Assembly (NCBI GenBank): GCA_918797485.1 | Contig: CAKKNE010000003.1 | Location: forward strand, 4,402,001-4,466,000 | Length of the DNA stretch: 64,000 bases | Source: Pelagomonas calceolata | Lineage: Eukaryota; Sar; Pelagophyceae; Pelagomonadales; Pelagomonadaceae | Direction: 5' to 3' | Shown: one piece after another, positions 913 through 59,584 of the stretch | Position numbering within the stretch: position 1 is the stretch's first letter | How the letters are laid out: every line of letters begins with the position of its first letter | Notes under the pieces: model-generated | What the model was told of the DNA's origin: nothing | The model's database searches: none | Seen by the model: the letters and a program-made list of their open reading frames with translations, nothing else | Program-made: the position numbers and the translations under genes

Positions 913-1106
913 TGCAATGGAAATACACGTCTAGTAGGATCCCAAGGTTCAACTGAGACGTATCCAAGCACAACCCGTACTTGTATTACCCGCCTAGGCT
1001 ACTTCCCATCCTAGGGTACTCCGATATCCCCTTAGTAGGGGGAAGTCGCCTCTCACTCCTAACTATTATCATCCTGAGTCACCTTTAATTGACGGACGTA
1101 ATTCCC
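913..1106. repeat. 194-bp direct repeat, copy 1
   Basis: Identical by eye to 1302-1495; the start-to-start offset is 389 bp and the copies are separated by 195 bp of unique sequence. No open frame, rRNA or tRNA feature is recognised. Lack of divergence suggests a recent duplication or gene conversion. The rest of 541-1790 is moderate-GC spacer in which I see nothing else. Confidence 0.9.
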
Positions 1107-7230: not shown

Positions 7231-7617
7231 CAGTGTAGAAATCAAATTATTATATGAATAGGCCTGGGATATTTCTGCTTCGTCAGATTGAAGTTCAACG
7301 TAAAGTTCAACTAGAGGGAGGGGGGGTAAATTTAGCAAAACCCGTCACCTAGGTGTTCTATTTGTCCAAAGGCCGGGCCTAAAAGGGTAAAACTCAAGTA
7401 AAATATGGTTCCAGCAGACACCGAGCTTTATCTTTGGTGGCCTGGAAGGCTCAGGAGGCGGATATGGAGCATCGCGCGTTACCCTAGTTACGTGCCGGAG
7501 GGGGGGGTAACGCGCGCGCGCAGAATTTTTAGGAGGTGTCTGCCGGCCGAAACAATAATTAATTAATAATTAATATTTGTATGGGCCGGCCTATCCCTAT
7601 GTTTGATTTCTACACTG
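7231..7617. mobile_element. Non-autonomous DNA transposon (MITE), hAT-like
   Basis: 387 bp. Terminal inverted repeats CAGTGTAGAAATCAAA / TTTGATTTCTACACTG are perfect over 16 bp and partly continue (GGATAGGCC-like). It is flanked by identical 8-bp direct repeats GCCTGGGC at 7223-7230 and 7618-7625, the target-site length of the hAT superfamily. The interior is AT-richer than the surroundings and has no transposase frame. Its termini differ at only two of 16 positions from those of the introner elements in the gene at 57408-59584, suggesting one transposon family. Perfect TIRs and target duplication imply recent insertion. Confidence 0.85.
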
Positions 7618-55184: not shown

Positions 55185-56591
55185 ATGCAGCGCGCAGTCA
55201 TCGCGCTCCTCTGGAGCGGCCTCGCGTGCGCGGGCCTCGAGCCGATCATGGAGAACTGCCTCCAGCCGCGAACGAAACCAGAACAATATGTGGTCATGCT
55301 CTCGGCCTTCGAGCAGATGAACAAGAACATCGCAGTCGTGGGGGAGGTCGCCGCGTGGGCGAAGAAACTGAATCGCATTTTCGTCGAGCCTACGTACTGC
55401 TACAGCCGCGTCGCGCCGCCCTTCGACTCCATCGAAGCGGGCGGGTCGGTTCTGCAAAAGGAACTTGGGAACCATGCCGACCGCTTGCGGGAGCTCAACC
55501 GCACCGACCTCTGGAAATGTAGCATAGCGAAGCAACGCCTGAGCTCCGTGCGCGACATCGGAGACCTCTGCCGAAACGTTCCCACTATTTCCCCGGCTAC
55601 GTTCTTACAGCGGCTCGAAGCGAAACCTGCGCTGAAAGAGTCCTTGGCGGTCTTCTTCCAAGGCGCGCATCTCAAGGAGGTCCTCGACGGGAGCCGAGGC
55701 AAATCCATAGTATATTTGGTGGGCCTCCACCGCCGGCTCGTATCGAATCATGATATCGCGGACGGCAGATGCATCACGAAGACGTGCCACGGGCTCAAGG
55801 CAGGCCCGGCGCCTTCATTAATCAAGGTCGCCAGGAAGGCCGCGGACAAAGCTCGGCCGTACACGTGCGTCAACGTGCGCTCGGAGACGACGCTCACGGC
55901 CGCCTCGCTGCGCTGCCCCGCGCAAATCTACGCCGCCACCGCACGAGCCAGGGCCGCGCTGCCCCCATTAAGAAACGGCACCACTCTCGTCGTGTCGGAT
56001 TTGTATTCGTCAACCTCGGGGACGTACACGGCCGGCGGCCGCCACGACCACCTTAAGGAAATCCTACGAGCGCGTCTCGAAAATCTCTTATTCGGCGGCA
56101 GCCGAACTGCCGAAGCAACGCCGCGGCCGCTGAACGCGCGGATGTGCGGCGCCGGGCAGCAGGCGCTGCTCGGGACGTCGTTCAAGCGCTTCTGCGTGTG
56201 GAGCGCCGTGCCGTTTCTGACGCGCGGGTTGCGCGGCTCGACCTATTGATTTCCGCACAGGTGGTGCAACGCGCGGGGGAACTGCACAGCGTGCGACCTC
56301 TGCTACCCTGCGCAGCCCGCGGGGCGCCGGCGCCTCGTGGCCGTCTCCGGGACCCGGAAGGGCCCCCTCGAGGCGCTCCTGCGGCGGGACGCCCCCGGCT
56401 CTGCGAAGGCGGCCATGACAGAGCAGGTGCTCTGCGCCCTCGCGGACACCGTAGTCATGTGCGCGAAGCAGGAGGGTTGTCCCTGTGGACGCGGCCTACG
56501 CAGCGGCTTCGTGAGCGCGATCCGGGCGTACCGCGCGCAGCTTGGCGGTTCCGTGGCGACCGATGCGGCGGGGGGGATATTTAGTTTCTGA
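55185..56591 (+). CDS. O-fucosyltransferase-like secretory protein
   Basis: Exons 55185-56197 and 56261-56591 (phase 2); 447 residues. MQRAVIALLWSGLACAGLEP is a signal peptide. The N-terminal PEQYVVMLSAFEQMNKNIAV, VGEVAAWAKKLNRIFVEPTY and later YTCVNVRSETT resemble O-FucT-type enzymes (N-terminal strand and LNRTLV/HVR-like blocks). The C-terminal MTEQVLCALADTVVMCAKQE resembles their terminal helix with Cys. The 63-bp intron (56198-56260) removes an in-frame TGA at 56247 and joins RFCV-WCNARGNCTACDLCYP. Its end, TTGATTTCCGCACAG, closely matches introner ends (TTGATTTCCACACAG), so it may be an old introner remnant. Moderate confidence in function. Confidence 0.5.
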
Positions 56592-57407: not shown

Positions 57408-59584
57408 TCACTCGTCCACGAGGCTCCCGTGGCCGAGCGCGCCACCGGCGAGGAACCCACCGCTCTTGCCATCGGGCCCCGCGACCCAGAACGCGTATAA
57501 AGCCGCGTCCTCCAGGCGAAACTCGAACCGTATAGCGCGCTCCGCCAGATCGGACACCAGGAGGAGGCGCCGGCGCGTCGCGTCCGCCGGGCCCGTGATA
57601 TTTGCGGCGCGCCCGCAGAGCGGCGCTCCGGCGTCGCTGAGCACGCGCACTTTGAGACCACCCTTGACGTCGGCGTTGACCTGTGTGGAAATCAAATTTC
57701 GGACGCCCCACGCCATCGACGCGACGTCGTCCCCGTAGCTGCGTCTCCGCGATGGCGTGGCGATTCCACGCCATCGACGCGATGTTGCCTCCATTCCTGC
57801 GTCGGCTCGATGACGTGGAAACTAACTCACTGGTTGATTTTTCACACAGACGTTGACCCAGAGGTAACGGGGCCCTGATACGAAAGAGAACGCGAGCGGT
57901 CGCGTCGTCGCGGTGCCGTTCGTCGCTTGGAGGCGCGCGAACCCGTCCCGTCTCAAGGTGGCCAATGCCGTGCGCTCCTCGTAGTCCTTGTAGACGCTTT
58001 TCCCGCCGCCCTTCCCGAACCCGTACCCCACGTAAAAATAGAGCCTTTCTTCGCGCGACCCGAGGCCGGCGACGATGGGCGAGCCCGAGGCGAGCTGCAC
58101 GTTCCACCAGCCCTCGGGCACGTCCAGAAACGGCCGTCGATCGTCCGGCCGAGTGATGTGAAACCCGTCGCGCGAAAAGCCCACGTGGGCCGAGTTGTTC
58201 TTCAGTTCGCCGCCCACGGCCGGGCCGTGGAGGAGCGCGAGCCCGTGGACGAGGATTGACTCGTAGGCGACGCCGTCCACGTTGTACACGTCGCACTGCT
58301 CGAAGGCGCAGTCGTCGCGGTCGACGGCGAACCAGGGCACCTGTGTGGAAATCAAATTTCGGGCGCCCCACGCCATCGACGCGATGCTGTCCCCGTGACC
58401 GCGTCGGCTCGATGGCGTGGAGGCTCACGAAGGTCCACGCAATATTTCTCAGGATAACCTAACTCACTGGTTGACACACAGCAGGGCACCGCCGCGTCGC
58501 CCTCGAGCAGCGGCTCGCACTGGAAGTAGGCGCCGTAGAGGGGCCGGCCGCCGCGCATCGCGATCCGTCGCAGGGGCGCTTCGGCGTGGGGCGCCTCGAA
58601 GAGGCGCCGCGCCCGCATGTGGCGCGACGGCCCGCCGCGGCACAGGTTCTCGCGCAGGCTGAACGCCCAGACTGGATCCCGTCGGAGCGGGTTCAGGAAG
58701 AACGTCGAGCGGTCCGCGAGCACGCCCGGGCTCCGCCAACCGTCGCCCTTCGGGTTCGTCCACGCGAGGCCGTCCGCGGACACGTAGGGCGTGTACTCGC
58801 GGTAGCGCCGCCCGCCCGTCATGTACTCCATGCGCAACGCCACGAAGCGCGGCGGCGTCCTCAAAAAGTCGTAGGCCACCTCGAAGGCCTCGACGTGCGC
58901 CGTCGCGAGGACCACGTTCGTCCCGCGCGCGGGGCGCACGACTTTCGGCGAGCGCGGCCGCAGCGCTCGCCGGTCGGGCGCGGGCGAGAAGCTCGTCGCG
59001 AGCTTCGGCCGCTCGAAGCGGAGGCCGTCCCGGGACGTCGCCACGCAGGTCCGGCCGCCCGGGACCCCGTGGTAGGGCCCGCCGCGCCAGCCGCACCGGT
59101 ACCAGAGGAGGAGCCGCCGCCGCGCTGGGTCGTACAATGATCCGCCCCCAAACGGCCGCGCCGTGCGCATGCCCTTGCACCGGGCCTGGTGGCACGACGC
59201 GTCCATGCCCTGGTTCGGCGTCAATACGGCGGGGTTCTTGAGACGCAGGCGGCCCCAGGTCCGCGTGACGTTGCGCGTGCGGGCCCAGTCGACGAGGTAG
59301 TCGTCAACAAAAAGCTGCCTGCCGCCGTCGACCCGGCGGACGCCCGGAAGTGAGCAGTACGGCGGCGTATCAGGCGCCCGCGGCGCTTGCGGCGGGTCGC
59401 TCGCGACGCGGTTTATGAATTCGGTGTCGCGCGGCGGCCACTCGCGTGGTAACGTGATGCCGCTGCGCGGGTCGGCGTTCGCGGCGACGGGCGGTGCGCG
59501 TGGCGTCGTGTCGACGCACCCTGGAGCGGCCCAGGAGGCTAGGCACCCAACGACAGCCCAGGAGATACTGCGCGCACGCGTCAT
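57408..59584 (-). CDS. Secreted beta-propeller glycosidase-like protein with two introner introns
   Basis: Exons 58490-59584, 57858-58340 and 57408-57680; 616 residues. The leader MTRARSISWAVVGCLASWAA is signal-like. GRQLFVDDYLVDWARTRNVT, RLRLKNPAVLTPN, GGSLYDPARRRLLLWYRCGW and GRTCVATSRDGLRFERPKLA match secreted five-bladed beta-propeller proteins (GH32/43-clan fold, common in planctomycete-type proteins). The C-terminal beta-sandwich (LKVRVLSDAGAPLCGRAANI, FRLEDAALYAFWVAGPDGKS) fits the same family. Probably acts on polysaccharide or matrix; active residues not assigned. Introns 58341-58489 and 57681-57857 are homologous transposon insertions; removing each with one target-duplication copy restores an uninterrupted frame (VPWF and VNADV). 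Bacterial-like ancestry is inferred from family resemblance. Confidence 0.7.
57681..57849 (-). mobile_element. Introner element 2 (intron-forming DNA transposon)
   Basis: 169 bp, starting CTGTGTGGAAATCAAATTTC on the plus strand and ending TTCACACAG, with ends inverted-repeat over about 15 bp. Flanked by 8-bp duplications GCGTTGAC (57673-57680) and ACGTTGAC (57850-57857), 7 of 8 identical. In gene orientation the intron is one duplication copy (supplying the GT of GTCAACGT) plus the element (supplying CACACAG). An internal CGCCATCGACGCGA unit is duplicated. Confidence 0.85.
58341..58481 (-). mobile_element. Introner element 1 (intron-forming DNA transposon)
   Basis: 141 bp, from CTGTGTGGAAATCAAATTTC to GGTTGACACACAG on the plus strand. 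Flanked by perfect 8-bp duplications CAGGGCAC (58333-58340 and 58482-58489; GTGCCCTG in gene sense). Donor GT is the first two bases of the duplication, acceptor AG the element end. Shares its first roughly 45 bp and last roughly 20 bp with introner element 2. Confidence 0.9.

Follow-up and report, generated by a model that had tools for sequence, protein, structure and literature searches.

The origin of introns has long been a question, and one well-supported way for a genome to gain many of them at once is through introners. Those of Aureococcus anophagefferens (Huff, Zilberman and Roy, 2016, Nature; cited in PMC9481584) are reportedly short, non-autonomous DNA elements that have inverted ends and target duplications and so provide one splice site. 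Compared by description, they resemble the elements treated here in being of the same kind and in residing in a pelagophyte. The likeness to Aureococcus drawn in the initial annotation of this locus fits in kind.

Introner families number from as few as 5 to over 2,000 copies, recruit splice sites in several modes and use GC donors at up to 50% (Gozashti et al., 2022; PMC9860276). That paper describes families that resemble ours in that the element bears the 3′ splice site while the duplication provides the 5′ site, in their GC donors and in exceeding 2,000 copies; its Aureococcus sp. example is unlike ours, since both splice sites are element-borne and the transcript gains 12 bp (PMC9860276). 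Its main text makes no mention of Pelagomonas. Introners were noted in Pelagomonas calceolata in 2022, together with an introner-like peak of intron length near 210 bp (Guerin et al., 2022; PMC9481584). A full-length family-A element with its duplication measures 211 nt in our data from the same species, whereas the sequence, ends, duplications and orientation of the elements do not appear in the main-text passages of that study that treat introners. The Pelagomonas introns are thus a clear fresh example of introners, not a new phenomenon. What is new here is the anatomy of the element, a type of end with frequent asymmetry, and an introner end that agrees at most positions with the end of a hAT-like MITE in which the AG is missing; the link to this MITE, which is not proven, holds the greatest specialist interest. 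The small, chromosome-scale genome of this abundant ocean alga holds introners used in both orientations, an often one-sided end type, an acceptor-less sister MITE and a gene with an apparent allelic difference in its introners. Because these forms stand side by side in one genome, steps from transposon to intron can be compared, and they are testable with existing RNA and metagenome reads.

The window, a stretch of 64,000 nucleotides on contig C3 of P. calceolata, carries a gene with two introns (Table 1). Both introns are almost certainly introners, that is, short MITE-like DNA transposons without a transposase of their own that inserted into exons. The initial annotation had recognised two related elements of 169 and 141 bp with shared ends and internal blocks, and these lengths and likenesses were confirmed: the elements are 87.5% identical across their first 80 bp, both start with CTGTGTG and end with CACACAG, and the internal block recurs as a second copy in the longer one. 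In gene sense the first intron consists of GTGCCCTG plus the element and the second of GTCAACGT plus the element, so that, as had been claimed, the duplication supplies the GT donor and the element the terminal CACACAG in both. The 8-bp duplications are likewise present on both sides of each element, with a qualification that the annotation passed over: the pair around the element at 58341 is perfect (CAGGGCAC/CAGGGCAC, 8/8), whereas that around the element at 57681 is mismatched at one base (GCGTTGAC/ACGTTGAC, 7/8). Exact restoration of the coding sequence therefore holds in the strict sense for the 58341 copy, while the two duplications of the 57681 copy differ by one base; the kept one, GTCAACGC, codes for an alanine that is also present in homologues P0001 and P0002. 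Once both elements are excised, each with one duplication copy, a single frame runs from 59584 to 57408 and encodes 616 aa. Left unspliced, the frame meets a stop at 410 aa, and removal of the first intron alone leads to a stop at 537 aa. Pfam searches with the unspliced frames of the host gene and with two homologues gave no family over the cut-off. A 53-nt foldback block (CCACGCCATCGA...GATGGCGTGG) occurs twice in tandem in one element (57708-57760 and 57766-57818) and once in the other (58368-58420), and a related block is carried by family A.

Table 1. Positions of the gene, its introns and related elements in the window, and introner-bearing loci elsewhere in which a Pfam domain spans the join
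Feature	Position or locus	Strand	Size	Remarks
Host gene	exons 58490-59584, 57858-58340, 57408-57680	minus	616 aa (spliced product)	beta-propeller-like according to the initial annotation
First intron (gene sense)	58341..58489	minus	149 nt	141-bp element together with the duplication copy at 58482-58489
Second intron (gene sense)	57681..57857	minus	177 nt	169-bp element together with the duplication copy at 57850-57857
Introner copy, family B	58341..58481	minus	141 bp	
Introner copy, family B	57681..57849	minus	169 bp	internal block twice in tandem
Kept duplication copy, first intron	58333..58340		8 bp	CAGGGCAC, gene sense GTGCCCTG
Kept duplication copy, second intron	57673..57680			GCGTTGAC; 7/8 match to ACGTTGAC
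Empty site (gene sense)	58696..58703	minus		GTTCTTCC; family-A introner here in P0005
Separate MITE	7231..7617		387 bp	ends CAGTGTAGAAATCAAA (16/16, perfect inverted); duplication GCCTGGGC
Cysteinyl-tRNA synthetase	L072			Pfam domain across join
ABC transporter	L082			Pfam domain across join
Acyltransferase 3	L018			Pfam domain across join
XRN exonuclease	L025			GC-AG copy; Pfam domain reaches just ~4 residues beyond join

Comparison with intron-less orthologues had been proposed in the initial annotation, and in two genes we found homologues that run directly across the joins. A protein search with the spliced 616-aa product as query returned P0001, a 617-aa protein with 115 member sequences and 99% identity, and P0002 (74%, 634 aa, from a 35-kb contig), both of which align along the entire product and cross the two joins gap-free. 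Four more distant homologues (P0006, P0007, P0008 and P0011; 42-46%) are gap-free at the first join and show small gaps a few residues off the second. P0001 may derive from cDNA or from an element-free allele, and in both cases it supports the exact joins. The second gene encodes cysteinyl-tRNA synthetase. Here the join falls within the motif DFALWK, from which the unspliced frame departs, and the motif is covered gap-free by P0123 (85%), P0125, P0126 (Aureococcus) and P0132 (Chrysophaeum); P0124 begins past the join and is uninformative there. Removal of the element together with one copy of the duplication thus restores the coding sequence in both genes when they are compared with their homologues.

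The host gene also appears to exist in a form with a further introner. Protein P0005, represented by one member sequence, contains at STFF/LNP a stretch that corresponds to the reading frame of family-A introners, and its 19-residue string was also found in frames of 6 of the introner copies fetched. The residues that flank this stretch fit the 8-mer GTTCTTCC on either side, while the window gene has the 8-mer once. P0005 would therefore carry an introner at a site that is empty in the window, and this one protein suggests that alleles of the host gene differ in their introner content.

We searched the genome (32,445,274 bases in 8 contigs) for further copies, as the initial annotation had also proposed. 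The RCC100 assembly is described as six nuclear contigs totalling 32.4 Mb with one plastid and one mitochondrial contig, and its contigs 1 and 5 as sharing a >99% identical duplicated region at their ends (Guerin et al., 2022; PMC9481584); equal-scoring matches were obtained near the starts of C1 and C5. The 13-base end CTGTGTGGAAATC, allowing at most one mismatch, gave 2,728 matches against 12 for the reversed control, which excludes chance. An internal 19-mer of family A with up to two mismatches gave 982 matches, against 3 for its control. When 19 complete copies were located through this internal pattern, both ends had the 13-base form in 15, one end in 1 and neither in 3; if these 19 are typical, the copies might very roughly total 1,700.

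Complete elements were surveyed in 94 loci, many of them overlapping and mainly from the start of contig C1. This yielded 62 distinct elements that were complete and carried 8-bp duplications with at most one mismatch; 5 of them were CAG/CTG MITEs and were excluded, leaving 57 introner-like copies. Of the 30 loci that came from the 13-base end search, 6 lacked a complete element under the survey rule. Every one of the 57 can be read as GT-AG (47) or GC-AG (10) in some orientation, where the flanking 8-mers predict GT in 10% and GT or GC in 32% (p about 8e-29 for 57/57). The duplication had GT on one side only in 42 of the 57 copies, every one of which showed AG at the matching end of the element. 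The introner reading of the initial annotation is supported by this copy number and these duplications, as well as by the exact joins and the differing introner in another allele.

An insertion of ordinary MITEs that simply broke the gene, with splicing absent, would account for two further proteins, P0003 and P0004, which continue into the first intron and stop there, the tail of P0004 being the translation of the window's own introner. We regard this explanation as very improbable, since GT or GC stands on one side in 57/57 copies and since comparison with homologues shows exact joins in two genes, of which one encodes a tRNA synthetase and is essential. Truncated proteins such as P0003 and P0004 are what an intron-unaware gene caller would be expected to produce from unspliced DNA.

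The orientation of the copies bears on how the introners spread. Read in gene sense, 15 family-A copies are forward and 16 reverse, family B has 4 and 6, respectively, and one of the 42 was unassigned. The about equal orientations of family A fit DNA transposition combined with an acceptor at both ends. Near-identical repeated introns are predicted as well by spread through an RNA route, such as the reverse splicing proposed for fungal introners (PMC9860276), and we consider that route extremely unlikely here in view of the inverted ends, the 8-bp duplications and the near-equal use of both orientations. Among 12 full-length family-A rows, 11 diverged by 2.5-8.1% and one outlier by 34%, the outlier being included in the mean of 7%. 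Carriage of introners by viruses was considered and rejected: 43 contigs of IMG/VR contain the 15-base end, and a paired second end within 400 bp was found in 0 of the 43 stretches, which is the pattern of chance matches.

The joins of other copies were assessed by a frame-length test, a crude measure that could be applied to 51 of the 57 copies (6 were omitted because of unclear orientation or a flank under 300 nt). The exact join gave the longest frame in 28 of the 51 (p 0.001 against one third), with a median shorter arm of 320 nt, compared with 175 nt when the join was moved by 1 base, 212 nt when it was moved by 2, and 165 nt for antisense. For neither of the window introns was the exact join the longest; for these two, it is the homologues that decide. 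On that comparison, both window introns are probably spliced. We also scanned with Pfam seven spliced proteins, chosen by eye as recognisable among the 20 with the longest frames of the 51, and found a domain that spans the join in four of them (Table 1) and none that does so in the other three. At a further locus, L081, an introner around position 1427 lies inside a gene for which Pfam gives a CCCH zinc finger alone, and which we take to resemble the small subunit of U2AF, a splicing factor.

These observations suggest how an insertion could become an intron. Insertion into an exon duplicates 8 bp of target. Where this target, read in gene sense, opens with GT or GC, the upstream duplication copy would act as the 5′ splice site. 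The terminal repeat at the downstream end of the element, read towards the exon as TTGATTTCCACACAG, would provide the AG acceptor and, judging from its sequence, a pyrimidine stretch and the putative branch site TTGAT. Splicing would then excise one duplication copy and the element, with no change to the coding sequence. Families A and B have one repeat in common to their two ends, so that copies of either family would be functional in either orientation, and insertions that could not be spliced would presumably be lost through selection.

To ask how well the end is preserved, we compared 34 acceptor ends, restricted to those not used for finding the copy, with 32 opposite ends. The AG was kept at 34/34 acceptor ends versus 26/32 opposite ends (p 0.01), and the GAT of TTGAT was kept at all 34 acceptor ends. 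The branch-site motif YTRAY was not enriched at acceptor ends (31/34, compared with 29/32 at opposite ends), which is what a single repeat copied to the two ends would give; TTGAT is a candidate branch site within this repeat. Total mismatches did not differ significantly between the two kinds of end (p 0.16). Unequal decay as measured by plain mismatch count was therefore set aside as a tendency, and it is the terminal AG alone that clearly differs.

A separate MITE of the window (Table 1) is related to the introners by its ends. It has 11 matches in the genome, counting itself and including partial ones, and 5 complete copies with 8-bp duplications. This family of CAG...CTG elements (the window copy, L043-L046 and L048) shares the 8-bp duplications with the introners, and the end of the window MITE is identical to the introner end at 14/16 positions, one of the two differences creating the introner AG. 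The family is unlike the introners in that its CTG terminus offers no AG acceptor, in its lengths of 374-396 bp, and in the duplications, which start with GT in neither sense in any of the 5 complete copies. The terminal consensus of hAT transposons is YARNG. The MITE (CAGTG) and CAG-type ends conform to it, which makes the MITE end hAT-like by this consensus. Introners have the 8-bp target duplication of hAT elements, but families A and B, which start with CTGTG, deviate from YARNG with a T at position 2, and we therefore class the introners as hAT-like and not as hAT.

A further end type, CWGTGCRYAAATCAA, gave 322 exact matches in the genome and 0 for the control. Among the first 100 matches listed, 19 adjacent pairs of this type were found, 14 of them CAG/CTG, 5 CTG/CTG and 0 CAG/CAG, and the asymmetry in the pairing of CWGTGCRY ends had a permutation p of 0.02. 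Four of the 42 GT-oriented copies start with CAG in gene sense, and all four end in AG; one TAG/TAG copy behaves likewise, and one more CAG-start copy fits through a GC duplication. Tentatively, then, the introner end could be a hAT-type terminal repeat altered at its second base, a change from CAG...CTG to CTG...CAG that would make the AG acceptor, the neighbouring bases having already offered a branch site and pyrimidine tract. The CWGTGCRY type would be an intermediate capable of splicing in one direction only, and families A and B, with their symmetric ends, would be the last stage, capable of both. We hold this to be possible rather than probable; if true, the change of one base would have led from an ordinary MITE to a maker of introns, with the stages present in one genome. 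Neither a hAT-like link nor the asymmetric end type appears in the titles and abstracts covered by a limited literature search.

The source of the transposase was sought in the same genome. Two elements encode hAT proteins, one on C4 (L041:3049-6699; 3,651 bp, 721-codon frame) and one on C5 (L042:3021-5889; 2,869 bp, 832-codon frame). Both have perfect 8-bp duplications, and their inverted ends match at 16/16 (C4) and 15/16 (C5) positions. The hAT dimerisation domain was above the Pfam cut-off for both in the genome search and below it for the C5 protein in the protein scan. Each of the two transposons is single and looks recent. They were rejected as introner source, their ends, CAGGGCAGCAGAAGGG and CTAGGTTGCCATTAAC, not being introner ends. 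The C5 protein as query returned itself and one short match containing a stop, a DUF659 search returned the C5 element only, and searches of both proteins against the loci collected up to that stage matched their own loci alone. No transposase-encoding element with introner ends was found among the surroundings of the end matches that we read or through the domain searches.

It is quite conceivable, with a chance that we put somewhat short of even, that a transposase of a non-hAT superfamily moved the introners, their likeness to the CAG-ended MITE being convergent or due to a shared non-hAT transposase. The different ends of the two hAT elements and the lack of a transposase-bearing element with introner ends among those found are in line with this, as is the T at position 2 of the introner end in place of the A of YARNG, although one of the two hAT elements has the same T. 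The agreement between introner and MITE ends together with the 8-bp duplications of both, and the hAT-like character of the MITE end by the YARNG consensus, point the other way. The domain searches add to this to different degrees: MULE had no match in this genome and matched in 4 controls, whereas KDZ and P-type domains had no match in the genome and none in the controls either, and are weak negatives.

Two other features of the window were noted. A lone introner-like acceptor end lies at 56241-56260, where TATTGATTTCCGCACAG is followed by GTGGTGCA; we detected no second end, and a search of the 600 bp upstream for a second copy of the duplication with up to one mismatch gave none. It is possibly an old, decayed introner. 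In addition, BLAST matched window positions 913-1106 and 1302-1599 to another repeat, at L052:869-1165 (C3 near 3.2 Mb), with 97-98% identity.
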